From positions 1 through 35,835 of the forward strand of contig JAICXK010000018.1 in assembly GCA_025980435.1 (NCBI GenBank): a DNA stretch of 35,835 nt. The letters are read 5' to 3'. The notes beneath the pieces are model-generated. The model saw only the letters and a list, made by a program, of their open reading frames with translations, was not told the origin of the DNA and did no database searches. The DNA is from Bryobacteraceae bacterium. Lineage in GTDB: Bacteria > Acidobacteriota > Terriglobia > Bryobacterales > Bryobacteraceae. Below are positions 2,915-17,990 of the stretch, one piece after another; positions within the stretch are counted from its first letter, which is position 1, and every line of letters starts with the position of its first letter. The position numbers were made by a program, and so were the translations under genes.

Positions 2915-2919
2915 ACGCG

Positions 2920-3252
2920 CTAACTCCGGACCGGGAGTACGATCGCGGAGATGGCTCCTGACAGGCGCTTCCAGTCCGCGGTCTGAGCTTCTAACTGCTT
3001 GCGGCCTTCTTTCGAAAGCGAGTAGAACTTAACGCGGCGCTTGGTGTCGCTGATCAACCATTCGGCCGTGATCCAGCCTTCTTGTTCCAGTTTGTGCAGA
3101 GCCGGGTACAACGAGCCCGGGCCCACCTGCAGAACATCTTTTGACATCTGCTTCAGGCGCTGCGAAAGAGCCCAACCGTGCATCGGCTCCAGTGCCAGGA
3201 TTCTCAGGATGAGCAAACCGAGCGTGCCTTGAACGAGATCGTTGGGTTTCAT
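2920..3252 (-). CDS. PadR-family transcriptional regulator (acidobacterial ADOP-linked type)
   Basis: The 110-residue protein is a winged-helix PadR regulator. The N-terminal half shows the family pattern LGLLILRILALEPMHGWAL, followed by GPGSLYPALHKLEQEGWI, which is the recognition helix and wing. The C-terminal part continues with KRRVKFYSLSKEGRKQL and a short dimerisation helix. Length fits the compact acidobacterial type (TIGR03433), whose genes tend to lie beside ADOP permease genes, as here. It presumably represses its own operon through the palindrome just upstream of its ATG; that is inference. The ligand is unknown. Confidence 0.93.
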   Translation of the reverse strand: MKPNDLVQGTLGLLILRILALEPMHGWALSQRLKQMSKDVLQVGPGSLYPALHKLEQEGWITAEWLISDTKRRVKFYSLSKEGRKQLEAQTADWKRLSGAISAIVLPVRS

Positions 3253-3257
3253 CTCTC

Positions 3258-3274
3258 TTATCGATGTCCGATAA
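3258..3274. promoter_or_regulatory. Candidate PadR operator palindrome
   Basis: TTATCG-N5-CGATAA is a perfect 6-base inverted repeat with a 5-base spacer. It lies 5 bases upstream of the padR ATG and directly after a plausible -10 box. A repressor bound here would block the start of the PadR-ADOP operon. The symmetry is seen directly; binding by the adjacent PadR is inferred. Confidence 0.55.
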
Positions 3275-3275
3275 C

Positions 3276-3304
3276 AGGATACGTGTTTCCGGTCTCATAT
3301 GCAA
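3276..3304 (-). promoter_or_regulatory. Candidate promoter of the padR-ADOP operon
   Basis: On the minus strand, TTGCAT (3299-3304) and TATCCT (3276-3281) are separated by 17 bases, giving weak -35 and moderate -10 matches to the housekeeping consensus. The -10 is followed at once by the palindrome at 3258-3274. The position next to a likely operator is the main support. Confidence 0.4.
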
Positions 3305-3353
3305 GCGCGATTGTTTGATGCTTCAGATGGCTTCGGATGAGGCCCGGCGGGAG

Positions 3354-3827
3354 CTACGTCTTCGTTCGGGCTTCCACCCATTTCCGAACGACCGCGACCA
3401 GTTGTTCCGCCTGGAACGGCTTGGACAGATAATCGTCCATGCCGGCATTCAGGCAGCGCTCGCGCTCGCCGACCAGGGCGTTAGCCGTGACCGCTATGAT
3501 CGCAGGCTGCGGTTGCTCCAGGCGACGGATCTGCCGACTGGCTTCGAAGCCGTCCATGGTTGGCATCTGGCAGTCCATCAGGATCACATCGTAAGGATTG
3601 GAGCGGTGTGCCTCCAGCGCTTCGTTTCCGTCGGCCACGAGGTCGATGCTATATCCCGCACGCTGGAGAATGAGTTTACCCACACGCTGATTAATGCTGT
3701 TATCTTCCGCCATAAGGATACGGAGATGGCCGTTCTGGCGCGGATTTTCAATCGGCGCTTCGCTCGCTCTCAGGCCGGCATTTGATGTTGGCGGCGGCAT
3801 TACGGAAGTAGGGCGGAATTGTGGCAT
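3354..3827 (-). CDS. Stand-alone response-regulator receiver domain protein
   Basis: The 157-residue protein has about 35 low-complexity Pro/Ser/Asn residues followed by one CheY-like receiver domain. Visible active-site residues are the acidic pair E41-D42, the phosphoacceptor D85 in LMDCQMPTMDG, T114 in AVTANA and K136 in LSKPF. There is no output domain. The sequence style (AEDNSINQRVG, LMDCQMP) is that of receiver domains at the C terminus of hybrid histidine kinases. However, the frame closes with a stop shortly upstream of the ATG and no kinase precedes it. It may be a single-domain phosphorelay protein or the remnant of a hybrid kinase. It lies on the same strand as the ABC genes, about 157 bases after the ATPase stop, so cotranscription is possible but unproven. 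Confidence 0.85.
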   Translation of the reverse strand: MPQFRPTSVMPPPTSNAGLRASEAPIENPRQNGHLRILMAEDNSINQRVGKLILQRAGYSIDLVADGNEALEAHRSNPYDVILMDCQMPTMDGFEASRQIRRLEQPQPAIIAVTANALVGERERCLNAGMDDYLSKPFQAEQLVAVVRKWVEARTKT

Positions 3828-3984
3828 CGTACGAATGAACGGGCCAAACCTGAAAACCAGGCTCTGTAATGCTTATCGTTCAATTCCCGGCCCTTCTTCA
3901 CGAGTTAACATATCACCAATTTAGGCTGCGACAAGTTTTTTGGATGGGATTTATCCTAAAATATCAGGAAAATTGGGGATTTGA

Positions 3985-4758
3985 CTAGTTTTTGGAGCGC
4001 GAAGTGATCTCGTCCTGATCGACTTTGCCGTCGCGTATGTGAATGATCCTATGTGCCTGCGAGGCAATGTCAGGCTCGTGCGTGACCAGCACGATCGTAT
4101 TGCCCTCCTCATGCAGCCGCTCGAAAAGCAGCATGATCTCATTCCCCGTCTTCGTATCCAACGCGCCCGTCGGCTCGTCCGCCAGCAGAATTGACGGGTG
4201 ATTCACCAGGGCTCTTGCGATGGCGACGCGCTGCCGCTGGCCGCCCGAGAGTTCGTTCGGTTTATGGTGCATCCGCTGCTCTAAATCGACCGAGCTGAGC
4301 GCCCGCCGCGCCCGTTCCAGGCGCTCCTGCGAGGAAATTCCTGCGTAGATCAGCGGAAGTTCGACGTTGTGCAACGCCGAAGCGCGAGCCAGCAGATTGA
4401 AGGTCTGAAAAACGAAGCCGATCTCTTTGTTCCGGATTCGCGCCAGCTCATCATCTTCCATCTCGCTGGCTAATTTTCCGTTTAAATAGTAGAGTCCTTT
4501 GGTGGGCGTATCCAGGCAGCCAATCAGGTTCATCAGCGTCGATTTTCCCGAACCCGACGGTCCCATAATGGCAACGTACTCGCCGCGCCGGATCTCGATG
4601 TCTACCCCCGAAACAGCATGGATCTCCTGGTCGCCCATGATGTAGGTTTTCCAGAGATCGTAGGTGCGAATGACGATGCCCTCTTGCCGGAGTTGCTCGC
4701 CTCGCGCTTCTAGTTGTTTCGGATTCAGCTCCTGGATTGCGGTGTCCAAGCTCGCCAT
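3985..4758 (-). CDS. ABC transporter ATP-binding protein, MacB/LolD type
   Basis: The 257-residue protein is a cytoplasmic ATPase subunit of the MacB/LolD/FtsE group. Visible motifs are Walker [10 protein letters not shown] (66-74), Q-loop FVFQTFNLL (Q118), signature [15 protein letters not shown] from 170, Walker [13 protein letters not shown] from 191 and the switch histidine in VTHEPD (H227). An N-terminal extension of about 30 residues precedes the usual start of the fold. The gene follows the HlyD-type adaptor by 22 bases on the same strand, the order seen in MacA-MacB-like export systems. No FtsX/MacB permease gene follows it. The partner permease must therefore be elsewhere, possibly one of the orphan permeases. 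Confidence 0.93.
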
Positions 4759-4780: not shown

Positions 4781-6208
4781 CTAGCTGGCGATGACGCCGG
4801 AGGGCGCCACAGGCCGCTTATTATCTACCTTGATTTTGGCGTCATTCCGGATGGTTCGAATTACCTCGTAACTTCCGGTTACGATTTGATCTCCCTGATT
4901 CACCCCGCTGAGCACCTCGATATCGGTTGCTCCCGTGATTCCGGTCTTAACCTCGCGGAACTGAGCCTTCCCGCCGGAAACAAGAAATACACCCTGCAGT
5001 TCCTTCTTGGCCGCCTTTTGAGCCGCCGGACTGATCTCCTGCTTATCGCCCGGCTTAGGCGGATGCAACTGTCCCTCTTGCCGGACCGTCAAGGCCTGAA
5101 TCGGTATCGAAAGCACGTGATCCCGGGTTGCGGTGGTGATCTTCGCGGTGCAGGAAAGACCCGGCCTGACCAGATGTTGCGGGATTTCGAGCGCAATCAC
5201 GACCCGAAAATCCTTGGCCTCCTGGCTCGAGGTCTGGCTCTGCGAAGCCGCTACGCCGCTGGAGCGCACAATCGCCGTGTCCCCGATCTCCATCACCTTT
5301 CCTTTGAATATCCGATTCGGAATCGCGTCAATCGTAACGTCGGCCGGCTGGTCCAACTTTACGCTCACAATGTCCGTCTCATCCACGTTGACTTCAGCCG
5401 TAATGATCGACATGTCGGCGATAGTCATGATGGTGGATGCCGCCGAGTTCTGAATGCCCGGGACCACTGTTTCACCCACCCGCACCGGCAGGTTGGTCAC
5501 CACACCATCCAATGGCGCAGTGGCGTCGTACTGCTTCAGAATATCGTGTGAACGCACTACCATAGCCTGCGCCTGCGCCACTTTCTTCTGTGCGGAACCC
5601 AGTTGGGCAGCCGCTTGCGCGCGCTGCGCCTGCGCTTGTGAAACCTTCCGCTGCGAGGCGGTGAGCGTCGCTTGCGCCAGGTCGTACAATGCCTTCTTCG
5701 CTTCAAAGTCCTGGGGAGCCAGCAGCTTCGAATCGAATAGCTCCTGGCTGCGCTTTAGATCCACCTTCTTCTGCTCTACGTCGGCGCGGTCATGCTCTAC
5801 CTGCGCCTGCGCCACCGCTACATTATCTTCAGCCGATTTCTCTGCGGCTTCCCCTGCCGCGGAGTCCGCCAGCGCCGCATTGAGGGATGCCTGCTGCGCT
5901 TTGAGATCCGCCTCCGGCTGCACGTCCGCCAAGCGGGCCAGAACCTCGCCCTTTTTGACCGTGTCGCCTTCCTTGACGTAGATCGCCGTAATGGGCGCGG
6001 GTCCTTGCGTATTCGCCCCTATGTTGATGTAATTACGCGGCTTGACCTCGCCGGAAGCCGTCACCACAGAGGACAGATCCATCCGGGCTACTTTGCTGGT
6101 CTGTACCGTGACCACGCCCCGCTCGTTGATTTTGATGCTGGCCAGGACAGCGCCTGCTATGAGCACAAATATCCCCAGCAGGATGATGATTTTCCACTTT
6201 TTCTTCAA
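4781..6208 (-). CDS. HlyD/MacA-type periplasmic adaptor subunit
   Basis: The 475-residue protein has an N-terminal membrane anchor ([20 protein letters not shown]). A lipoyl-like half motif follows ([16 protein letters not shown]), then a long Ala/Gln-rich alpha-helical hairpin at about 105-220. The second lipoyl half ([12 protein letters not shown]), a beta-barrel domain and a membrane-proximal domain complete it. This is the order of membrane-fusion adaptors that bridge an inner-membrane pump and a TolC-like outer-membrane channel. The start is a TTG at 6206-6208 with GGGGAG about 11 bases upstream; no better ATG is in frame before the membrane anchor. An insertion rich in Lys, Pro and Gln lies near residue 385. 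It is cotranscribed with the downstream ATPase. The gene is clear; the substrate is not. Confidence 0.9.
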
Positions 6209-6350: not shown

Positions 6351-7547
6351 CTAGACATAAATTCGCTTCACCCGAGCGTGAATCCCGCACAGCACGCTGT
6401 ACGAAATCGTTCCGGCCAGCTTGGCGATCTGCTGGGCATCGATACTCACTTGCCCTTCCGAACCGAGCAGTGTGACCGGGTCGCCTACCTGCGTTTCCGG
6501 AGACTGGCTTACATCAATTGTCGTCAGATCCATCGAAACGGCGCCGACTATTGGGCACAGTTTTCCATCCACGATCACGCTTCCGCGATTCGATAGCCGG
6601 TGCGGGATGCCGTCCGCGTATCCGGCGGCCAGGACCGCAATGCGCATCGGCCGTGGGGCACGAAACATCCCGCCGTAGCCGATGAGCGCACCTGCCGGCA
6701 CCTCTTTGACCGACAACACGCTGGCCCGCCAGGCGAGCGCGGGTTTCACCTTCAAAATTCTTCCTGGCGCGTTGCCGCGCGCTGGAGAAACATACCCGTA
6801 AATCGCGTGCCCCGGCCGGACCATCCCGCGCCAGCACTGCCTTCGCCCGTACGCGACCGGAATTGTACTCGAAAGATGAATGAGGTTTGGATGGATGCCT
6901 GCCGTGTTCAAGGCGCTCACTACGGAATCAAACGTCCTTATTTGATCCTCGGTTTGGCTGCTCTGATAATTGCCGGCGGACGCAAAATGGCTCATCAAGC
7001 CTTCCACTTCCAGGTTTTTCGCTGCCCGGATCGCTTCACCGATGGCCTCGGCGTCCGCGCGTACGCCGAGGCGTCCCATGCCGCTGTCAATCTTCAAATG
7101 GCAGCGGCACCGCTGGCCGCGCGCCAGGGCGAGTTGATTGAGCGTAGCCAGACCTTCAAGCGAGTGAATCACGGGAGTAAGCCCGTGTTCCAGTAAAGCT
7201 TCCCGCGCGAAAGGCAGAAAATCAGCCATCACCAGAATGCGTGAACGAATCCCCGCGTCGCGCAGGGTCACGCCTTCTTCCGTGTTGCTGACCGCCAGCC
7301 AGCGCGCCCCCTGCTCTTCTAGCGTTCGCGAAACCTCGATGGCGCCGTGCCGGTAGGCATCCGCCTTCACTACCGGCATGATTTCCACTTCCGGGCCGAC
7401 GACATCCCGAATCGCCTGAAAATTCGCGGCAATCTGCCCTCTGGAAACTTCCACCCAGGAACGGTACGGCCGTGGCTCCGGTTTGGCAGCCGGTTCGATT
7501 GGCATCGGGTCCGCCGGACGTGGCACAACTAACGGCAACTCAGTCAT
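6351..7547 (-). CDS. alr: Alanine racemase
   Basis: The 398-residue PLP enzyme interconverts L- and D-alanine, supplying D-alanine for peptidoglycan. The PLP lysine is K61 in MPVVKADAYRHG. The catalytic tyrosine is Y291 in IGYGGMF. The region between has the expected alpha/beta-barrel pattern, with HLKIDSGMGRLGV and the C-terminal domain GAVSMDLTTIDV. A Pro-rich N-terminal tail of about 30 residues is longer than usual. The ATG overlaps the stop of the upstream glycosyltransferase by 8 bases, so translation is probably coupled. Placement of alr at the end of a glycosyltransferase run is unusual but consistent with an envelope role. Whether it is the only alr in the genome cannot be seen. Confidence 0.95.
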   Translation of the reverse strand: MTELPLVVPRPADPMPIEPAAKPEPRPYRSWVEVSRGQIAANFQAIRDVVGPEVEIMPVVKADAYRHGAIEVSRTLEEQGARWLAVSNTEEGVTLRDAGIRSRILVMADFLPFAREALLEHGLTPVIHSLEGLATLNQLALARGQRCRCHLKIDSGMGRLGVRADAEAIGEAIRAAKNLEVEGLMSHFASAGNYQSSQTEDQIRTFDSVVSALNTAGIHPNLIHLSSTIPVAYGRRQCWRGMVRPGHAIYGYVSPARGNAPGRILKVKPALAWRASVLSVKEVPAGALIGYGGMFRAPRPMRIAVLAAGYADGIPHRLSNRGSVIVDGKLCPIVGAVSMDLTTIDVSQSPETQVGDPVTLLGSEGQVSIDAQQIAKLAGTISYSVLCGIHARVKRIYV

Positions 7548-8625
7548 TCGGTAAAGCTAAACGCCGCAACAGCGCTTCATAAGCATCCGTCACTGCATTC
7601 CAACTGTAGAGCTTCTCTATTCTTTGCATAGCGCGGGCGCCCCACGCCACCCGCTCGGCCTCGCATAGATCGACGGCCCACTGCAGCTTTTCTCTCAGGT
7701 CATTCTCGAACGGAACGGCCGCATCACCCGCGACCTCAGCGCTTTCAGGCGTATTCAGATAGAGCACCAGAGCGCCGCGTCCCATGGCTTCGATCAGCGC
7801 CGGGTGCGTACCGCCCACTTCGGTAGCCTGGACATAAATAGCGCAATGCGATTGCAACTGCCGGTATCCTTCGCCATAAATCGCGCCTGGCATGATCACT
7901 CTCGGATCACGCGTGTCCTTCACCTGGCGTATATAATCGGCCGCGTAAGGGGCATCGCCAACCAGGACCAGCTTGTAATCTGTCCGCACCTGCTCGAAAA
8001 CCTGCCGGACCAGTAGCGCGTTGTTCTCCGGCTCCATGCGGCTGACGTACAGAACGTATTTACCGGGTTCCAGTCCGAGCGCGCGGATCTCACCTGATTC
8101 GGGGACCTTGCCGGCCTCCGCTCCATAGGGAATAAAGGTCGACTCTTTACCATAGCGATCCAAATAATACTTCCGGATTGCCTCGGCATCGGTCACGATC
8201 GCCGAGCAGCACCATGTTGCCATCCACTCCGAAATCAGGTACCAGTTCTTTGCGAGCTGGTTCCATTTCTTGCGACGGCGCTCCACGCCATCGACGTTCA
8301 GCGCCGTGGGCATTCCGAGTAGCCGCGGCCAGAGAGTGAAAATGGCGTTCGCCGCATTGCAGTAAAGCACCGCATCGAACCGGCGGAAAAGCAGATCGAC
8401 CGTCGAGATCGCAGTGTGCGCGACTGTATCCAGGTACTTGTGCCGTATGGTTGGCAAATAGCGCAGCCGCACGCCGCGATACACCTGTTCCCGATAGCGC
8501 TCGCGGCAGTACACGGTCACAGCATGACCACGCTCAGCCAGCCGGACCGAAATCTCTTCGGCGAAGGTTTCGAACCCGCCGTAGTTCGCGGGAATACCGC
8601 GCGTACCGAGCAATGCGATGCGCAT
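7540..8625 (-). CDS. Glycosyltransferase with DUF1972-type N-terminus (GT-B, GT1/GT4-like)
   Basis: The 361-residue protein starts MRIALLGTRGIPANYGGFET, typical of DUF1972-type glycosyltransferases of the GT-B fold, some of which are rhamnosyltransferase-like. The C-terminal Rossmann half carries VLYVSRMEPENN and the donor-binding region GGTHPALIEAMGRGALVLYL. No membrane segment or signal peptide is visible, so it likely works on the cytoplasmic face of the membrane. Its ATG shares one base with the stop of the upstream GT2 gene (TGATG), and its end overlaps alr. The acceptor and sugar cannot be told from sequence. It probably elongates a surface polysaccharide or glycolipid with the two GT2 enzymes. 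Confidence 0.9.
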   Translation of the reverse strand: MRIALLGTRGIPANYGGFETFAEEISVRLAERGHAVTVYCRERYREQVYRGVRLRYLPTIRHKYLDTVAHTAISTVDLLFRRFDAVLYCNAANAIFTLWPRLLGMPTALNVDGVERRRKKWNQLAKNWYLISEWMATWCCSAIVTDAEAIRKYYLDRYGKESTFIPYGAEAGKVPESGEIRALGLEPGKYVLYVSRMEPENNALLVRQVFEQVRTDYKLVLVGDAPYAADYIRQVKDTRDPRVIMPGAIYGEGYRQLQSHCAIYVQATEVGGTHPALIEAMGRGALVLYLNTPESAEVAGDAAVPFENDLREKLQWAVDLCEAERVAWGARAMQRIEKLYSWNAVTDAYEALLRRLALPND

Positions 8626-9617
8626 CAGTAAGGGAACCCATTGGAAAACCAGGCGGCCATCTGTTCATCCGGGACGCGCCTTCGCCGCATAATTTCGCGC
8701 CGCTTCGCCAGTGTGAGACGAAGCTTTCGCAAGACCAGCCAGAACGCCGGCAGAGAACTCCATTCGCGCAGCAGGCACCCGCCGATGACCGCCAGATCCC
8801 GCATTGTGATCGCTAGCCAGTAGCGCCGGTACACACCGGCTGTCATGTTCTTGATCCGCAGCAGCCAGCGATTCTTCACCGAATGCATGTTCAGGACAGC
8901 GGGAACAGCCCTGCGGTTTTCGGGCAAAACACTCCGCACGTGATAAGCCACGGCAAGCGGCGTATACAAGCATTTCCAGCCCGCCAATTGGGCCCGCCAG
9001 GCGACATCGGCATCTTCGCGGTAGGCAAAAAAATCGCTGTCGAAAAATTCGCCGTCAATGCTTATCTCTTCAATCATGCGGCGGCGATACAGGCACGCGG
9101 CGCCCGTTGCGCCAAACACATATTCGGGCTGATTGTACTGGCCTTCGTCCGCGACACGGCTGCCGCGGTCCAGATGCCGCAGGTTGCGCGTCATATAGAT
9201 TCCCGTCGAATCGAACACCGGGCGCTCGGGCACTCCAAAATCGTCTGTCATCCTGAGCAGCTTGCCGCAGGCGCTCCCCGCTGAGCCATCCGCCTCCAAT
9301 GCCGTAACCAATCTGCGGATAAAATCCGGCGTCAGCCGAACATCCGGATTTAACGTCAGAATCCAGCCGGCGTTCGTCAAAGCGATCGCCTGATTCTGTC
9401 CAGCGGCAAACCCGGTGTTTTCGTGGTTGTAAATTACGCGAACTCTGTCCTCGTATTCCCGCAGAATCTCAACTGTTCCGTCCATTGAAGCGTTGTCGAC
9501 AATGATCACTTCCGACTGCGAATAATCCTGTTCGAAGACATATTTCAGGCACTGCCGGATAAAAGCGCTGCTGTTGAAAGTGACGATCGTGATGGCGGCC
9601 AGGCCCGAATCGGACAT
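8625..9617 (-). CDS. Family 2 glycosyltransferase
   Basis: From the ATG at 9615-9617 the protein has 330 residues and begins MSDSGLAAITIVTFNSS, with the GT-A nucleotide-sugar fold. Family marks are VIIVDNASMDGTVEIL, NTGFAAGQNQAI and the divalent-metal motif region LNPDVRLTPDF. FFAYREDADVAWRAQLAGW supplies the acidic catalytic-base segment. The pattern resembles rhamnosyltransferase-like GT2 enzymes. A TTG three codons earlier (9624-9626) overlaps the previous gene's stop (TTGA) and is an alternative start. Basic residues at the C terminus suggest membrane association. It is the middle gene of a three-glycosyltransferase run. Confidence 0.9.
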   Translation of the reverse strand: MSDSGLAAITIVTFNSSAFIRQCLKYVFEQDYSQSEVIIVDNASMDGTVEILREYEDRVRVIYNHENTGFAAGQNQAIALTNAGWILTLNPDVRLTPDFIRRLVTALEADGSAGSACGKLLRMTDDFGVPERPVFDSTGIYMTRNLRHLDRGSRVADEGQYNQPEYVFGATGAACLYRRRMIEEISIDGEFFDSDFFAYREDADVAWRAQLAGWKCLYTPLAVAYHVRSVLPENRRAVPAVLNMHSVKNRWLLRIKNMTAGVYRRYWLAITMRDLAVIGGCLLREWSSLPAFWLVLRKLRLTLAKRREIMRRRRVPDEQMAAWFSNGFPY

Positions 9618-9622
9618 CGGTC

Positions 9623-10612
9623 TCAAGCGGGCGGCACCAGGCTGAAATACAAGCGCCAGTAAATATCGAACCCGATCTTCTTCTGCAGCTCGCGAATCTC
9701 GCTCTCGCTTTCTGAGATGGCCTCCTCAATCCGGCTCGCGCATTGCAAATCCTTTCGAAAGGCTCTCCATCTGACTAACGCCTCGATCTTGCCGCGCACT
9801 CCGGATAGAAAATGACCGTGCTTTGCGGTTGTGGCGAGGGAAAGCATCTGGCCGACGAAGATCGGCCAAGCAAAGCGCCGCAACGTGCGCGCCGGATAGT
9901 GCTTCGCCAGCAGCAAAACCTGGTTCCGCGCGCTCAGATACATAACGCGTGCGCCGTTCTTTCCGAGCGTAGCCTTACCCGAATGCAGCGCGACCGCCTC
10001 CGGCTCGTAGATACCCTCAAAGCCCGCTACGGCGCACCGCATTCCGAAGTCCACGTCCTCGTAGTACGATTCGAACCGAGTCTCCAGTAATCCCAGCGCG
10101 TCGAACACCCGCCGATGAAAAAGCGCCGCCGTCATGGGCGCCAGTTGAATTTTCCGCCTGACACGCCAGATACCTTCATCCTTTCGCCCCCAGCCGCAGC
10201 GCCATGCGTAGGCGGCCCGCGAGACCAGATCCCAGCTTCCGTCCAGGGTCGCTTGATCGTGTTCCTGCAGTAGCCGGCCGACTACAAATGCGGCGTTCTC
10301 CTGCTCGGCCGCCGACAATAAACGTTCAATCCAGTCCGGTTCCAGGCGAACGTCGTTGTTCAGTATCAGGATCCATTCTCCGTTTGAGCGCTGGATCCCT
10401 TCATTCACGGCGGCGGCGAATCCACGATTTTCCGGCAATGCTACCACTTCCGCTCCCAACCGCCGCGCGACGGCCTGCGTCTCATCCTTGCTGCCGTTAT
10501 CGACCACGATCACCTGGCCGGGCGGCTGCGTCTGCTCAGCCAGATTCGTAAGGAGAGACTCAACCAGGGCGGCTCGGTTCCAGGTTGGTATGATCGCCGA
10601 CACCGTTTCCAT
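9623..10612 (-). CDS. Family 2 glycosyltransferase, first gene of the glycan run
   Basis: The start is taken at the ATG 10610-10612 (METVSAIIPTWNR), because the longer open frame would run into the divergent oxidoreductase gene and adds no family sequence. The protein has 329 residues. GT2 marks are VIVVDNGSKDET, NRGFAAAVNEGI, LILNNDVRLEPDW and the catalytic segment FESYYEDVDFGMRCAVAG. It resembles the next gene in architecture, so the two may be ancient duplicates acting in sequence on one glycan. The C-terminal 60 residues include a predicted helical stretch (SRIEEAISESESEIRELQ). Its end overlaps the TTG start option of the next gene. Confidence 0.9.
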   Translation of the reverse strand: METVSAIIPTWNRAALVESLLTNLAEQTQPPGQVIVVDNGSKDETQAVARRLGAEVVALPENRGFAAAVNEGIQRSNGEWILILNNDVRLEPDWIERLLSAAEQENAAFVVGRLLQEHDQATLDGSWDLVSRAAYAWRCGWGRKDEGIWRVRRKIQLAPMTAALFHRRVFDALGLLETRFESYYEDVDFGMRCAVAGFEGIYEPEAVALHSGKATLGKNGARVMYLSARNQVLLLAKHYPARTLRRFAWPIFVGQMLSLATTAKHGHFLSGVRGKIEALVRWRAFRKDLQCASRIEEAISESESEIRELQKKIGFDIYWRLYFSLVPPA

Positions 10613-10654: not shown

Positions 10655-12073
10655 ATGACACGTCGGGATGTATTGCAAATCGGAACGGGCGCGGGTCTGG
10701 CGCTGGCATCAAAGCAGGCGCAAGCAGCTCATAAGAAGAGTGTAGTGGTTGCGGGCGGCGGCATTGCGGGCCTGTGCTGCGCGTATGAATTAACCCGCCG
10801 CGGCCACGATGTCACGGTGCTCGAGGCGTCCGGGCGCGTCGGCGGTCATGTCAAGACCGTGCGCGACGATTTGCCCGACGGCTTGTACGTAGACGCCGGA
10901 GCCGAGCAGTTCACCAAACCCGGCTATGACCTCTACTGGGGTTACGTTCACGAGTTCAATCTCCCGCACATTCAGGACCACCGCCGCGACCACATGATGC
11001 GGCGCATCGGAGACCGGCTCTATTCAGAAGGCGAACTGGCAGACCCGAAGGTGCTCGCCGGATTTGGCTTCAATCAACGAGAAATCAAGTTCCTGACCCA
11101 GCACCCGTGGTGGGATCTGCCGCGTCTATATCTGGACAAATACAGCGACGCATTCCATGACGAATACCGGCCCTTCGATGCCGGACTGGACGATCTGGAC
11201 AACATCACCACCACCCAACTTTTGCAGCGAGAGGGTGCGTCCGATGCAGGCGTGCGATTCGCCGGCGGCTCATCCTCCGCCCTTCATACGGTCTGGCACA
11301 CGGCGATTCTGAAGCGGCGCGGTGTTCCACTCTGGCCTACCCAGGTGTTTCGCCTGAAAGGTGGAAACAGTCTGTTGCCCGAAACGTTTGCCGCGAAACT
11401 GGGCGATCGCGTCAAACTCGGCTGTCCTGTGACGGCACTTCGTCAGGGAAGCAGCGGTGTAACCGTGAACTACCGCGAGTTTGGAAAACCGGCGCAGATC
11501 TCGGCGGACTACCTGGTCTGCTGCATGTCGGCAGTCATGCTGCGTCAAATTCCCATCACGCCCGCTTTACCAGAAACGAAGCGCTGGGCAGTCGCCAACG
11601 TGCCCTACTACTCCGCTACTCGCCCCGTGCTACAGGCGCGAACGCGCTTCTGGCGGAACAACAAGACCGGGATCAATATCGAGTTCTCCGAACAGACTCT
11701 GGAGCACGTGTGGACCATGCCCGACGAGGTGCAAACACCGCGCGGTTTGATCGTGGGAACGGCTGCGCCGGGAGTCAAGGCGGAAACAGCGCTCGAAACA
11801 TTTCGCGCGACTTATCCCGAAAAAGATACGATCGAGTACGCCAGGATCATCGACTGGTCGAAAGATCCCTGGTGCATGGCTTGCGAAACGACGGAGTACA
11901 AACCAGGCGAGTTGAAAAAATTCTGGCCCGCCCTGATTGAGCCGCACGGCCGTATTCACTTCGCCGGAGCCTATTGTGACAATCTCAATTGGGGCCAGGA
12001 GGCCGCCACGCGCTCCGCCAATCGTGTGGCCCGCGCAATTGATTCCGCCACGAATGGCGCCAGCGATTTGTAA
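10655..12073 (+). CDS. FAD-dependent amine-oxidase-like protein with possible Tat signal
   Basis: The ATG at 10655 is chosen over the TTG at 10646, because GGAAGAG lies 9 bases before the ATG. The 472-residue protein begins MTRRDVLQIGTGAGLALAS, a twin-arginine-like leader ending near AQAA, which suggests export with bound cofactor. The dinucleotide-binding motif follows (VVVAGGGIAGLCCAYEL, then VLEASGRVGGHVKT). The C-terminal flavin motif is HFAGAYCDNLNWGQEAA. This is the layout of flavin amine oxidases, protoporphyrinogen-oxidase-like enzymes and desaturases. The substrate cannot be told. It is divergent from the glycosyltransferase run with only 42 bases between starts, and an ADOP permease follows on the same strand. 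Confidence 0.88.
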   Translation: MTRRDVLQIGTGAGLALASKQAQAAHKKSVVVAGGGIAGLCCAYELTRRGHDVTVLEASGRVGGHVKTVRDDLPDGLYVDAGAEQFTKPGYDLYWGYVHEFNLPHIQDHRRDHMMRRIGDRLYSEGELADPKVLAGFGFNQREIKFLTQHPWWDLPRLYLDKYSDAFHDEYRPFDAGLDDLDNITTTQLLQREGASDAGVRFAGGSSSALHTVWHTAILKRRGVPLWPTQVFRLKGGNSLLPETFAAKLGDRVKLGCPVTALRQGSSGVTVNYREFGKPAQISADYLVCCMSAVMLRQIPITPALPETKRWAVANVPYYSATRPVLQARTRFWRNNKTGINIEFSEQTLEHVWTMPDEVQTPRGLIVGTAAPGVKAETALETFRATYPEKDTIEYARIIDWSKDPWCMACETTEYKPGELKKFWPALIEPHGRIHFAGAYCDNLNWGQEAATRSANRVARAIDSATNGASDL

Positions 12074-12118
12074 GAAGTCTTATTGGTTACAAATCCGTCT
12101 GGAGGACGCATTCTGCTG

Positions 12119-14572
12119 TTGATTTTTGGCCGCAATCTGAAGTACGCGATCCGGGCTCTGCGCAGGCAACCGGGATTCGGGATTATCGCAATCGCAATAT
12201 TGGCGACAGGAATCGGATCGGCGCTCGCGGTATTCAACTTGTTGGATGGGCTCATGCTTCGGCCGCTGCCCATCCGGAATGCCAGTGAACTGGTAAGGAT
12301 CTCGGCGGTCCTCCGCGACGGTGGATCCGGCACGCTGCCTACGACGTTTCTCGATGTCCTCCGCGCAGTTCCGGACTACCGTTCAGTCTGCGGTTTCGAT
12401 ACCGGCTACCCGGGCGTGGAAGTGCAAGGTTCCATCACTTCTGTCGGAACGCTCGGTTTTTCGGGTGATTGTTTTTCTACTCTCGGGATCGACGTCCAAC
12501 TCGGCAGGCGGTTGACCCGGCGCGACGAACTGCCAGGCGTTGAACCTGTGGCCGTGATCACCGACGCGTTTTGGGAACGGCAATTCGACAGGCGGCCGGA
12601 CGCGCTGGGTCAGCGCATCCGCGTGGAAGGCCAGACTTACACAGTGGTCGGCGTGGCGGAGCCGCAATTTACCGGTTTGTTGGTCGGGTTCCCGGAAGGG
12701 TTGATCATCCCAGCAAGCCAGGAATACACCGAAAAGATGCCCAATGGCAGGCTGCCTACTTATTGGTGGGTGAACATTCTCGCTCGGCGTGCGCCAGGCG
12801 TTTCAGAACAGGAGGCTGCGGCCCGCCTGAAGGTACGCGCTCACCAACTGCTTGAAGCAAGTGTTCCTCCGCACTACAACGCCGAGCGCAGGAAACACTA
12901 CTTGGCCATGAAGATCACGGCTTCCTCGGGGCGAACGGGCGTCGATTATTTTTTGCGCCGCCGGTTCGGTGGTTCGCTCTACGCGGCAGCGGGCATCTGT
13001 GGCGCGATCCTGCTTATCGGCTGTACGAACCTGATCAATTTGCTGCTGGCGCGCAGCCTGAAGCGGCGTCACGAAATAGCGGTTCGTTTTGCGCTGGGTG
13101 CAAAACGAAGCCAGATCGCCGGCTTGTTCGCAACGGAGGCTTTCGTGCTGCTTGGAGCGGGAGTCGGTCTTGGGCTCCTATTGGCACGAGCACTGGATAA
13201 GTGGCTGATCGTTCGCGGAGCGCACATGTTCGGCAACTTCGACCCCGAACTAACATTCGATGGGCGGACCGCATTCTTTTTCGCTGCGACCGTTGCGGCC
13301 ATTGGGATTGTTTTCGCCGGAGCATCCGTCTGGCAGACGGGCAAGATGCGTGAGTCCGGATCTTTGAAAAAGAGCGGGCGCGGTATCGCCCGAGGCAGTG
13401 GCACGGCGCAGAAAATTTTGATTGGATTGCAGATCGCCCTCACTCTGGCATTAGTGTCCGGCAGCAGCTTGCTTACCGCTTCGCTCAAACATCTCTACTC
13501 CATCGATTTGGGCGTAACGACCCGGAACGTATGGGATGTGATGCTGTCCACTCGACCCGGCGCAAAGACCTACTTTGTCCGCGGACCGTACTATCGGGAG
13601 ATCCTGAGCGAAATTCGCGACATACCTGGAGTAGAGAGCGTCACTCTGGCGGATACCGTTCCATTCTTCACTTTTCCCGATCCGGAACCGATTGCGGGAG
13701 TGGATACCGGTCGAGCCCAGCAGGAGGTAAATGGAGCCATGCTGAGCGTCTCCGCCGATTTTTTTCGAACACTGGGCATCAAGCTGACTGCCGGCGACGG
13801 CTTCGAAGATCGTGAGGGCGGTAAACCGGCGGTTATCGTCAGTGAATCGCTGGCGGCACGGCTGGCTTCCCGGCCAAACGAATTGATCGGCCATTACATT
13901 CGCCTGGGAGCGGATTCACGCTACCAACGGCTTCGAGTGACCGGGATCGTGTCGAATGCCCAGATGAACCTGGCTCATCCGGAACAGATTGCGCCGTTCG
14001 TCGCGTACATCAACATCTGGCAGCATCCCGATACGCAAGGATATCCGGTGCTCCTGATGAAGACCGCAACCAACAGCTTAAACGTGAATGCGCTACGAAA
14101 GATCGTGGATTCCAGGGGGCGCGAGTACGTCGATCGCGTGAGAACGCTCGCCGATGAAAAGGATGGCGCGCTCATGGAGAATAAGCTGCTTGCCTATTTA
14201 TCGGAAGCGTTCAGCGGGCTAGCGCTCGCGATTGCCGCAACCGGATTGTTTGGCCTGCTCAGCTATCAGGTCGCCAACCGGACGAGCGAGATCGGCGTAC
14301 GCATGGCGCTCGGCGCCCGCCGCCGCCAGATCGAATGGATGATCTCGCGGCAAATTCTCGCGGTAATCGCGGTGGGAAGTTGCGCCGGCCTTTTCTGCAG
14401 TCTGGCTGTGGCCCGGATGATCCAGGGTTTGCTGTTCGGAGTCAGCCCATACAATCCGTGGCTGCTGGCGCTATCAAGCGGCGTCCTCGTTGCGACGGCC
14501 CTGATAGCAGCCTGGATTCCGGCACACCGCGCCTCCTCGATCGATCCGCTCACTGCGTTACGGCACGAGTGA
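12119..14572 (+). CDS. ADOP-family duplicated FtsX-type permease without PadR partner
   Basis: The frame is open from 12083 and encodes up to 829 residues. It has no ATG at the N terminus; GGAGGA at 12101-12106 points to a start near the TTG at 12119, 12 bases after it, with CTG at 12113 or 12116 or the TTG at 12083 as alternatives. From 12119 the product is about 817 residues. It lacks the charged PadR-linked prefix and begins almost at once with the first membrane helix (LKYAIRALRRQPGFG). Two FtsX bundles each follow a periplasmic domain; the second shows GVRMALGARRR. The end DPLTALRHE matches the other ADOPs. It follows the oxidoreductase by about 45 bases, so cotranscription is likely. 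No ATPase is adjacent. Confidence 0.88.
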   Translation: MIFGRNLKYAIRALRRQPGFGIIAIAILATGIGSALAVFNLLDGLMLRPLPIRNASELVRISAVLRDGGSGTLPTTFLDVLRAVPDYRSVCGFDTGYPGVEVQGSITSVGTLGFSGDCFSTLGIDVQLGRRLTRRDELPGVEPVAVITDAFWERQFDRRPDALGQRIRVEGQTYTVVGVAEPQFTGLLVGFPEGLIIPASQEYTEKMPNGRLPTYWWVNILARRAPGVSEQEAAARLKVRAHQLLEASVPPHYNAERRKHYLAMKITASSGRTGVDYFLRRRFGGSLYAAAGICGAILLIGCTNLINLLLARSLKRRHEIAVRFALGAKRSQIAGLFATEAFVLLGAGVGLGLLLARALDKWLIVRGAHMFGNFDPELTFDGRTAFFFAATVAAIGIVFAGASVWQTGKMRESGSLKKSGRGIARGSGTAQKILIGLQIALTLALVSGSSLLTASLKHLYSIDLGVTTRNVWDVMLSTRPGAKTYFVRGPYYREILSEIRDIPGVESVTLADTVPFFTFPDPEPIAGVDTGRAQQEVNGAMLSVSADFFRTLGIKLTAGDGFEDREGGKPAVIVSESLAARLASRPNELIGHYIRLGADSRYQRLRVTGIVSNAQMNLAHPEQIAPFVAYINIWQHPDTQGYPVLLMKTATNSLNVNALRKIVDSRGREYVDRVRTLADEKDGALMENKLLAYLSEAFSGLALAIAATGLFGLLSYQVANRTSEIGVRMALGARRRQIEWMISRQILAVIAVGSCAGLFCSLAVARMIQGLLFGVSPYNPWLLALSSGVLVATALIAAWIPAHRASSIDPLTALRHE

Positions 14573-14581
14573 GTCTTCTGA

Positions 14582-17500
14582 TCACCCGCCGAAGGTCGAG
14601 CGCTGGATCCAGGTCGGGAACGGCAGCGGCCACGACATCAGAGCCAGGTGATCGTACGCCCAAAGGTTAATAAGCCCCACGCCTCGCGTGCTGGCCAACA
14701 TGAACTCGCGCGGCCAGGGACACGTCCCGTTGAACCACGGGACCAGATACGCGATATCTGCCGTGTCCCACGACATGGGATTTGAGAGTGCAAACACAAT
14801 CGCCTGGTGCGCTAAGTCCATGTGCAGGTACGTCGCGCCCCAACTGAGCGCCTCTACCTTAAAGCGGTCGAGCCCGCTTCCCTGCTTTGTGCTCCATTCC
14901 GGCGGCAGATTAACGGCTGCATTCAGGCGTCCCCCTTGCGGAAATTGAACGCCGGGGCCGAGCAGGCAGACCGGATTGTTGACATCGTTCGGATAGAGGA
15001 TTTCAAATTTGGCATTCGGATATTGCGCAAGAACAGCGGTCCGTATGGCATCCACATGAGCCTTTAGACGACCGACCAGGAAACTTGCGTCCGCCCCGCC
15101 GTTCACCGAAGGATCATCGTCCTGACAGGTGAACTTGTACAGCGGCCGGCCGAGCGCAGACTGAGCGGCGTCGGCGGTGACCGGATCGTAATACGCCATC
15201 GAGCCGCCCCGCACTTGCCCCGAGCCGGCCAGCCACTGCCCATTCGCGGCAACCGGTATCGTGAAGTGCGTAGAATCCGTAACAATGACTGGCCACGTTC
15301 CGTTTGCGGACGTGCAGCCCAGAACCCCTGATATGACCACCCGATCGCCTGTCGCCATTCCGTGTGGCTGGGCAACTCCGATGCTAATCGGATCGGTAAA
15401 CGCACAGAACCCAACCGGCTGCGCCATCGAGGAATAGAACCACCAGAGAAACTCGCCGAATTGAAGCCACGGCGTAAGCCCCGCCGTATTTTGCAGACCG
15501 GCCATCACCGTGTAGACGGATTTCTGAAACTCCGTCATGTTATCGATGAACGCGCATTGAGACGATTTGAGATTCGCGAACCCCGTATCGGTCGTGACGG
15601 GAGTGCCGTCATAGAAGCGCGCCTGCCAGTCATCGGGTGGATTCACCAATTCCATGGAGAATGAGGTCGTAATCAGCAGGCCGGCGGCCTTCACCTCGTT
15701 GAACAGGTCGGCATGCCATTGGCGAATCGGGAAATTGATGGGGTTCGCCGCGGAGGGGTCGATCTCCCAGGTTCCGTTCAATCCTTGCGCGAGGGTACCG
15801 GACAGACTGATTTTGGAAGTCGGATTTGCCGACAGCGTGTCACCCCAGTTCGGGGTTCGCGTATGAATTGTAATTTCACCTGTGCCGGTCTTCTCGGCCC
15901 ACATCGAAACGCTGGCGGAGTTGATGTAGAAGACAAAATGTTGAGCGATCGTATCCGGCGTGTCCCAGGTGATGATCGACTTGGTCATGGTGAAGCCGCC
16001 GATACTTACCTGGGCGACATCGCCGTTCGCCCATGGCCCGGCGAAGGTCACCACCGCCGAATTCCACACACCTCCCACGCGCTTCCGCTGGTTCCACCAG
16101 AAGACGCCCAGATATTCGTTCAACTGTCCTCTGAACCCGAGCTTCTGCAGATGCCACAACAGCCGTTGCGGGCTCATCTTGTAGGTGGCATCGGTATCGA
16201 AATCGAGCGCCGGGCTTACCTTGCCGTACGTCACCATTGCATCGCTGATATCCGTCGCCGGCACCGCCGCCTCGATGTAGTCGAAGATGAAAGGGTTTGA
16301 AGTTTGAAGCGTTAGCGTGGCAGTGTGGGTTCCGGCCGGAACAGATTTGCGGAGAAGCCGGCGGGTAACCACTTCAGAGCCGGTGTTCAGGTAGCAATTG
16401 AGGCTCGTAGGCGCATCGCCGTCCAGGCTGGCCGAAACAGTTCCGCGATCCTGATATAACGAGGTCCCCAGATACAGATCATGAGTCTGATCGCACTTGT
16501 AAGAAACCGTGACCGAATCCCCTGCCTCGGCTGTGACGCGCGCGAAACCGTGCCAGTAGTTGTTGGCGGACTGCACTTTCCAACCCGCGCCCGAGTACGC
16601 AACCCGATTATCGTCATTCGCAATGCGGACGCTGCCAGGCCCCGCAATCTGTAGTGGCCTCACATTGTTCGGATCGGCGACTGTCCAGTTGCTGAAGATC
16701 GCGGTCCACTCCGTATCCTGATAAACAGCACCGTCCGGCAACCTTGGCGCAAATGTCAGCCATGCCTGCCGGATCTGATCGATACGCAGGGCCGAAAAGT
16801 CGAGCGCGACGTTCCAGACGACGTTATCCGAGTTGCCGCCGGCCAACTGCAAGACTGGATTGCCATTGTTTACTTGAAGTGCAATGTTGTCCGGCCTGAC
16901 GATCATGTAAACTGCAAGTCCGTTGCCATCCGAACCGCCGTATTCGGCAAGGTACGGAAAAGCGCCGGCTGGAGCAGCGGAGGCCAGGGTAAGAGAAATA
17001 TGGCTGGTTACCGCCGCGACAGTGTAGCCGGCGCCTCCGAGATAGATTGTCGAGCCCGGCGCGATGCCTGGAAACTTAACCCCATCTGACCACTCAACAC
17101 TGACGCCCGAAACATTCACATGCCCTGTTCGCGCATTCTTTAGAGTTAGATTTCCATTTCCATCGCTGGACGCAATTACCGAAACGCTGCTCTGCGCGAA
17201 AGTGGACCAGTCGTATGTATTAATCGCATTCGCAAACCATTGCGCGACGGCGGCCGCACTCTCGCCTCCGATTGCTACAAAATCGAACTCGGCATTGTTC
17301 ACGAACAGAGTCAGCCGGTCATAAATCGTGCATCCGCCCGGAGCGCTGAACGTGTAGGTTCCCTGCGCCACAGCGTAATTGCCTGAAAGGAGCGTGGCGT
17401 GATCCCAAAGCCGCACCTGGGTTGTTTGGCCGGCCGAATCGATCACATCGAGTTGCGCCCAGTCGATCCACGAGAATTTCGCGGAATCGATCGGCTGAAG

Positions 17501-17758
17501 CCCCTGATAGTTCAAGTCGAAGCTGAGCATCATCCCAGACAGATCAAAGCTGGGAAGATACTTGACCGAATAGTGCTCGAAGATATTATCTGCATCGTAG
17601 AGAATCAGAACGCAGAAATCCGCAATATCGCGGAAGACTCCGCAAACCGTGAAGCCGGTCGGGCTGGTTTGGCAGAGCGAAGCCGCGGCTCCGGCACCGT
17701 CGAACCCGCGCAAGTAAAGAGTTCTGTCCGGCTGCAGCTTCAGAATTTGTTCTGTCAT
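14582..17758 (-). CDS. Large phage/tail-like structural protein, possibly non-contractile tail sheath type
   Basis: The 1058-residue protein has no signal peptide or membrane helix and is rich in Trp, Asn, Thr and Gly. The N-terminal half is beta-rich, with a segment AVAQWFANAINTYDW reminiscent of repeated domains in phage tail proteins. A short insert at about 795-850 (HGMATGDRVVISG, ANGTWPV, DSTHFTIPV) has the pattern of small beta domains common in phage structural proteins. Residues about 677-1058 alternate helices and strands like a TIM barrel. This combination resembles non-contractile tail sheath proteins; that assignment is from memory of the family, not a search. No capsid, portal, terminase or integrase gene is nearby. 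It is convergent with the ADOP gene, 9 bases away. A secreted carbohydrate-active or cell-surface protein is the main alternative, though the missing signal peptide argues against it. Confidence 0.5.
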   Translation of the reverse strand: MTEQILKLQPDRTLYLRGFDGAGAAASLCQTSPTGFTVCGVFRDIADFCVLILYDADNIFEHYSVKYLPSFDLSGMMLSFDLNYQGLQPIDSAKFSWIDWAQLDVIDSAGQTTQVRLWDHATLLSGNYAVAQGTYTFSAPGGCTIYDRLTLFVNNAEFDFVAIGGESAAAVAQWFANAINTYDWSTFAQSSVSVIASSDGNGNLTLKNARTGHVNVSGVSVEWSDGVKFPGIAPGSTIYLGGAGYTVAAVTSHISLTLASAAPAGAFPYLAEYGGSDGNGLAVYMIVRPDNIALQVNNGNPVLQLAGGNSDNVVWNVALDFSALRIDQIRQAWLTFAPRLPDGAVYQDTEWTAIFSNWTVADPNNVRPLQIAGPGSVRIANDDNRVAYSGAGWKVQSANNYWHGFARVTAEAGDSVTVSYKCDQTHDLYLGTSLYQDRGTVSASLDGDAPTSLNCYLNTGSEVVTRRLLRKSVPAGTHTATLTLQTSNPFIFDYIEAAVPATDISDAMVTYGKVSPALDFDTDATYKMSPQRLLWHLQKLGFRGQLNEYLGVFWWNQRKRVGGVWNSAVVTFAGPWANGDVAQVSIGGFTMTKSIITWDTPDTIAQHFVFYINSASVSMWAEKTGTGEITIHTRTPNWGDTLSANPTSKISLSGTLAQGLNGTWEIDPSAANPINFPIRQWHADLFNEVKAAGLLITTSFSMELVNPPDDWQARFYDGTPVTTDTGFANLKSSQCAFIDNMTEFQKSVYTVMAGLQNTAGLTPWLQFGEFLWWFYSSMAQPVGFCAFTDPISIGVAQPHGMATGDRVVISGVLGCTSANGTWPVIVTDSTHFTIPVAANGQWLAGSGQVRGGSMAYYDPVTADAAQSALGRPLYKFTCQDDDPSVNGGADASFLVGRLKAHVDAIRTAVLAQYPNAKFEILYPNDVNNPVCLLGPGVQFPQGGRLNAAVNLPPEWSTKQGSGLDRFKVEALSWGATYLHMDLAHQAIVFALSNPMSWDTADIAYLVPWFNGTCPWPREFMLASTRGVGLINLWAYDHLALMSWPLPFPTWIQRSTFGG

Positions 17759-17990
17759 CCCGCCCGAGTATCGGCATGCCCGCGAACCGGGTACGACAAA
17801 AATCAGTAGTAACTCGCTGATTTCAGATCAGAAGACTTATTTCCGCCCGACGTGATCGACTTGCAAAAGGCTTTGGAAATAGGCTGGTGGCATCTTCTTC
17901 TGATGCTCTAATGCCCGAATTCATGTGGATGTATCGTCGGCCTTCCGTTCCTGTGGTCTGCAGGCTCCGCGGGTGCGTCTGATCCGCCCC
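17759..17990. other. Noncoding spacer upstream of the tail-like gene
   Basis: These 232 bases separate the propeller-like gene from the tail-like gene on the same strand. I see no convincing gene. A small inverted repeat, CTGAT-N5-ATCAG, occurs near 17820, and GGGCGGG just upstream of the ATG at 17758 may be a poor ribosome binding site. No clear promoter or terminator could be assigned. Confidence 0.4.

Follow-up and report, generated by a model that had tools for sequence, protein, structure and literature searches.

Why does a gene of phage-tail character stand by itself among ordinary chromosomal genes of a Bryobacteraceae bacterium? In the window (the whole stretch of 35,835 nucleotides that was analysed), an open reading frame on the minus strand (14582..17758, including the stop codon) starts with ATG and encodes 1058 residues, exactly as an earlier note on this DNA had described. 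We do not consider this a chance frame, because homologues are encoded at 23 loci from other Acidobacteriota MAGs, the 19 aligned are 43–75% identical, and pN/pS is 0.22–0.36. The earlier note had placed the gene between an ADOP permease and a CHAT operon, with no capsid, terminase, integrase or other tail gene nearby. Both points held, as the neighbours are an amine oxidoreductase, a MacB/FtsX permease of ADOP type, two unassigned genes, a TPR-CHAT gene and an MFS transporter, and no phage genes were recognised within the window. Since these flanks are ordinary chromosomal genes, the gene stands alone, and a search of the genome found no second copy. ADOP-type permease paralogues of one family lie at 242-2914, 12083-14572 and 32287-34980 of the window.

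Domains, fold and possible catalysis

The guess that this is a non-contractile tail-sheath protein (NCTSP) had been made without any search, and both Pfam and structure prediction bore it out. Pfam placed PF23845 (TIM-barrel_NCTSP) at E 2.8e-17 and 63.2 bits against a cut-off of 27, and PF23844 (NCTSP_N) below its cut-off of 27 (E 0.0026, 17.4 bits). The AlphaFold2 model built with 38 homologues was confident (mean pLDDT 91.7, pTM 0.90), and together with Pfam it supports the expected layout of a beta-rich N-terminal half and a C-terminal TIM barrel. Its closest match in the PDB is N4 gp64, a tail chain of 415–417 residues (Z 27.6, 2.5 A over 297 residues), which also matches the family profile (E 3.8e-13); top structural matches also include phage proteins annotated as NCTSP. 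Glycosidase barrels (Cwp19, PgaB, GH35) come next, and the viral models that align over most of the length include those of Acinetobacter phage IMEAB3 and Aeromonas phage MJG. In PHROGs, the matches are phrog_6040 (3e-21) and, weakly, the tail sheath phrog_165 (5e-5); another weak tail-sheath match is to Milano gp20. We regard family and fold as established.

All domains are encoded on the minus strand. The NCTSP N-terminal domain region (residues 25-123, 17390..17686), which carries the sub-cut-off PF23844 match, is conserved in phage, GTA-like and stand-alone homologues. A carbohydrate-binding-module-like region follows at residues 415-489 (16292..16516), where a single-sequence phmmer search against PDB gave only a weak match to MiXBM, a family profile reached E 1.8e-6, and Foldseek returned MiXBM and CBM folds. 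The TIM barrel spans residues 511-1048 (14615..16228), with PF23845 at 15428-15754, and is interrupted by the small beta insert that had been noticed before; by Pfam and the model it is E1_FCCH-like (residues 797-835, 15254..15370), and it is missing from most distant homologues. By eye, a second FCCH-like beta module may lie at about residues 213-272, and an FCCH-like module also occurs in the hub of one phage-type locus (L008). Weak FCCH-like matches in frames of about 1650 aa in the genus suggest a mobile structural insert, judging by sequence.

Five acidic residues (E703, E769, D925, E969 and D1036) do not vary across 38 sequences of the phage, GTA-like and stand-alone kinds, and in the model the last four, including E769 (codon at 15452..15454), sit at C-terminal ends of barrel strands, with no superposition made on a known active site. 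Because of this location, a catalytic barrel is plausible on the model, although activity has not been shown and Pfam matched the window protein to no glycoside hydrolase family by sequence. No signal peptide is evident, as had been noted, judged from the sequence without a predictor; the N-terminus (MTEQILKLQPDRT...) lines up with the starts of the phage homologues.

A GTA-like cluster lacking only this gene

Partner genes lie elsewhere in the same genome. Contig C142 carries a head and tail cluster of about 14 kb (L164 1378-14999) that we call GTA-like. Pfam and PHROGs identify a terminase (1378-2703), a portal (2726-4111), a scaffold (4119-4700, weakly), a P22-type coat protein (4821-5732), two DUF2460 proteins and a tail hub (11046-14999), and Phage-tail_3 proteins accompany the DUF2460 proteins in the tail tip. 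Small head/neck genes lie between coat and tail tube. The tail tube (7425-8576) and a short tape-measure-like gene (9205-9891), which the DUF2460 genes separate from the hub, were inferred from position and weak matches, as were the terminator and chaperone labels. A 388-aa gene of the cluster was considered as the capsid and rejected, as it looks like a tail tube and the capsid lies upstream of it. Between species of the genus the coat protein is 87–91% identical and the tail tube 47–66%. No integrase or replication genes were recognised in the gene lists adjoining the cluster. A 344-aa frame just upstream of terL (L164 1-1032) is IS110-type transposase-like by sequence reading, and permeases related to those of the window also occur downstream of the cluster in the genus.

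What this cluster is demonstrably without is an NCTSP gene, and nothing else. In most relatives, an in-cluster NCTSP type of about 900–950 aa is the last gene of the conserved cluster, as in G002 and other congeners, where NCTSP comes after the hub and before genes of 473, 419, 260 and 334 aa. In the genome of the window (G000), the hub is followed directly by the same 473-419-260-334 aa order, with the transporter-like 473-aa gene immediately 3' of the hub at C142 15048; the counterpart of that gene comes after NCTSP in G001, G002, G005, G011 and G013. NCTSP is likewise missing from this position in G006, G009, G010 and G012, where similarly sized genes follow the hub (in G010 without the 473-aa one). 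In three other genomes the in-cluster copy is broken: in G107 (L230, contig C138) some 12 kb of intervening sequence separates a 534-aa part from a 419-aa part, and the copies in G084 and G226 are broken as well.

Across 200 family genomes, an NCTSP C-terminal match was found in 173 and a GTA-type hub match in 167, with both in 163, hub only in 4, NCTSP only in 10 and neither in 23 (Fisher p 1.5e-18, uncorrected for phylogeny). Among the NCTSP-only genomes, some contigs are fragments and some copies may be prophage; in at least three of the four hub-only genomes, the hub match is weak or partial or the assembly is fragmented. NCTSP lies in the cluster in about 93 genomes and elsewhere in about 50. 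Among 121 listed genomes with both matches, 89 have it in the cluster and 32 do not, and the other 28 divide into 4 in-cluster, 22 elsewhere, one adjacent but inverted and one absent; about six of the placements on different contigs look like contig breaks. The closed genome G189 removes assembly doubt about remote placement, since its hub lies at 4.40 Mb and its sole NCTSP at 0.43 Mb; in G146 and G200, NCTSP lies about 2 kb past the hub, inverted. Both co-occurrence and alternative placement are, in our judgement, secure. Some genera include genomes that have lost both NCTSP and the cluster (e.g. G172, G179, G040), which is no more than suggestive, because linkage in the ancestors of these genomes is unknown. 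In the window's own genus, stand-alone and in-cluster genomes are interleaved, which requires repeated gain, loss or exchange.

A candidate regulatory element (GATCACG...AAATCAGCGAGTTAC, 17804..17857, minus strand) begins 97 nt before the NCTSP start codon, and its copy on C142 begins 96 nt before terL. No exact 8–10-mers are common to the stand-alone and terL upstream regions; only a gapped pattern (TCAC[AG], 8–18 nt, A/T run) revealed the element. Among stand-alone genes, it was found within 260 bp upstream of 16/24 seen first (shuffled mean 1.4) and 13/16 fetched later (shuffled mean 0.7). Of 20 terL genes, 12 have it in the 900 bp before the gene (shuffled mean 1.7, maximum 5), and of 201 control genes, 17 have it upstream. 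As the pattern was spotted by eye after part of the data had been viewed, it is the later-fetched sets that carry weight. The pattern is loose, with 16 chance matches elsewhere in the window. Extended by eye, the element is roughly GTCACA-N13-TTTTTTCTTCC-N5-AATCAGC-N3-TTA, and the sites before the stand-alone gene of G092 and terL of G187 are closely alike. In a genome-wide scan for further co-controlled loci, an extended form of the pattern matched once in G189 (upstream of NCTSP), seven times in G000 and 13 times in G144, mostly by chance. Since the element is common to both, co-regulation of the stand-alone NCTSP genes with the terL operons is supported statistically, with no bench test. 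The same kind of element precedes orthologous genes of about 800 aa in two genomes, G089 and G228 (loci L276 855-3227 and L274 reverse complement 828-3257), and the CHAT part of the G089 protein is similar to that of the window's TPR-CHAT protein; this is possibly another co-regulated locus, or chance.

Phage relatives and origin

The earlier note had asked whether homologues in other Acidobacteriota stand alone or beside phage genes, and both kinds were found. At seven loci (L008, L016, L018, L020-L022, L025) the homologue directly follows a large tail hub, mostly in the order tape measure, DUF2460, hub, NCTSP. Because of this position, we take NCTSP to be a normal tail-tip gene of Acidobacteriota siphophages. 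One Solibacteraceae genome carries prophage-type tape measure, hub and NCTSP operons on three contigs (L021, L022, L025). No adjacent tail genes were found at the window or at L004, L005, L007, L009, L010, L012-L014, L017, L019 and L023. Flanks of the stand-alone gene vary among genomes of the window's genus, and in Bryobacter its synteny is vertically kept (L011-L013, L015, L023). A further 79 homologous loci came from IMG/VR. By tblastn, the window protein matched none of 50,697 phage records, and a prophage homologue used as query gave only weak matches limited to the TIM-barrel part. Second NCTSP copies in four in-cluster genomes (G080, G101, G111, G128) all proved, on checking, to be prophages with their own hubs.

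In a 100-sequence tree, the in-cluster NCTSP type forms a single clade (support 100), and the stand-alone copies are all on the phage side, where they make up two clades. The gene of the window belongs to a clade of five copies (100) nested among viral contigs, and the wider stand-alone clade holds 15 (97). Details may shift, as the tree was quick and has long branches; the phage-side placement also shows in identities, about 51% to viral copies and about 30% to in-cluster copies. Since both clades of stand-alone copies lie among phage versions, we interpret these copies as captured phage tail tips, and it looks as if the tip was swapped in from phages at least twice. Phage-type NCTSP genes inside the cluster at L068, L095, L119 and probably G120 point to further replacements. 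The phage origin of the gene is, in our view, demonstrated.

Weighing the readings

We consider that the window gene most likely (probability about 0.73) encodes, in trans, the tail-tip protein of a GTA-like particle of Acidobacteriota that has not been described before; this protein would be of phage origin and bind carbohydrate, while production of particles and transfer of DNA are only inferred. The earlier note's option of a domesticated tail-like device is thereby the best-fitting one, with its partner genes on C142. The protein would be a distal tail component of the non-contractile tail-sheath or receptor-binding type, with a CBM-like module and a glycosidase-like barrel, and the particle's other structural genes would lie in the separate, vertically inherited cluster. 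By inference, NCTSP would be made together with the particle, dock on the hub, and bind and perhaps trim exopolysaccharide on recipient cells, with the particle carrying host DNA. The phage-derived version would have taken over as the ancestral in-cluster gene vanished, so that the adhesin changed and the particle core was kept. However, particles, DNA packaging and the presence of the window protein in a virion are all without experimental evidence, and by sequence comparison the stand-alone protein is only about 30% identical to the in-cluster type it is supposed to have replaced. The NCTSP-only and hub-only genomes, the looseness of the upstream element and the interleaving within the genus also speak against this reading.

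We used published GTA features as criteria (PMC9662315). The particle proteins derive from tailed phages (terminase, portal, scaffold, P22-type coat and tail proteins), they are endogenized over several loci (the chromosomal cluster plus a remote NCTSP, as in closed G189), and inheritance is mostly vertical. For the last, distances of the cluster and rpoB correlated in 23 genomes (r 0.53–0.75, p 0.0005 each); both trees also contain, with support, the clades G043/G045/G096/G041, G028/G095/G146/G189 and G024 with the window's genus, with deep branches unresolved. The stand-alone gene correlates less well with rpoB (0.39, p 0.009), as expected of a swapped part. With head size unknown, the remote tail-tip locus merely hints that the particle may be unable to package its own genome in full. 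Without tests of its DNA content, packaging limit or delivery, we say only "GTA-like". The cluster might instead be a defective prophage that is conserved and tied to its host, or a capsid device serving another purpose such as protein delivery, with the stand-alone gene still supplying its tail tip. This is a real though less likely possibility: transfer of random host DNA cannot be demonstrated from sequence and three IMG/VR contigs (L068, L095, L119) hold such clusters, but the cluster is single-copy in most of the family in clades matching rpoB, it retains terminase and portal, and integrase or replication genes were not recognised beside it.

Considerably less probable is that the protein came from phages but has nothing to do with the cluster, and works on its own as a polysaccharide-active enzyme, at the surface or secreted, or as a decoy phage receptor. 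The barrel near PgaB, Cwp19 and GH35 glycosidases, the CBM-like module and the five invariant acidic residues would suit this, yet a secretion signal is not evident, the gene is missing from most cluster-less genomes, it complements the cluster copies, and it shares its upstream element with terL operons. The earlier suggestion of an unrelated cell-surface enzyme is thus left without support, though the barrel resembles glycoside hydrolases and may be catalytic. Least credible is a now functionless phage remnant, an orphan tail gene that stayed behind when a prophage decayed or cargo was transferred, which the phage-side tree position, the absence of phage genes around it and the differing flanks between genus genomes allow, but which is opposed by its intact, full-length state in several species, host-like base composition, presence where the cluster has no copy of its own, the kept synteny in Bryobacter, and the pN/pS values among five genus orthologues (0.22–0.30 for the window gene against its congeners). 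On these sequence comparisons the stand-alone genes are evidently under purifying selection, so of the earlier "phage remnant" idea the origin stands and the decayed state does not.

Returning to the trans-encoded tail tip of a GTA-like particle, the N4 sheath is a gp64-gp65 heterodimer in which gp65 is the receptor-binding protein (PMC12633501). The window barrel is homologous to gp64; it differs in lying within one 1058-aa chain with a CBM-like module, in its association with siphophage-like tail genes, and in being chromosomally alone. In Acidobacteriota siphophages and prophages (L016, L018, L020-L022, L025 and IMG/VR contigs), the same protein ends the tail operon; there the tape measure has 1050–1650 aa, whereas the GTA-like cluster has a protein of about 200–280 aa at that place and no long tape measure. 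RcGTA of Rhodobacterales encodes receptor-binding proteins at ectopic loci (PMC13420450). Like the acidobacterial cluster, it consists of phage-derived particle genes fixed in the host chromosome, and a TIM-barrel domain protrudes from its baseplate. Its tail tip contains DUF2460 and Phage-tail_3 proteins, as in the acidobacterial cluster. The differences are the phylum, the P22-type coat protein of the acidobacterial cluster, and the ectopic part, which here is an NCTSP that most relatives have inside the cluster and that phage versions have replaced repeatedly.

GTAs have been shown experimentally only in alphaproteobacteria, one deltaproteobacterium, a spirochete and a methanogen (PMC9662315). 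Judged by title and abstract, the open-access papers that were found to mention both Acidobacteria and GTAs do not report an acidobacterial one, and PMC5900883 describes prophages only. As a broader proposal, to which we give even odds, most family members would have a GTA-like system, so far undescribed, whose capsid is P22-type, whose tape measure is very short and whose tail-tip adhesin is exchangeable: lineages would repeatedly have dropped the cluster's own tip and adopted phage tips, expressed in trans at a distant site but governed by the same control element, so that gene exchange is retargeted while the core is left untouched. If a GTA-like cluster is indeed conserved in this family of soil Acidobacteriota, GTAs would be extended to a phylum with poorly understood gene exchange, and the split, phage-swapped tip would offer a direct handle on selection for GTA maintenance and on the recipients of the DNA.
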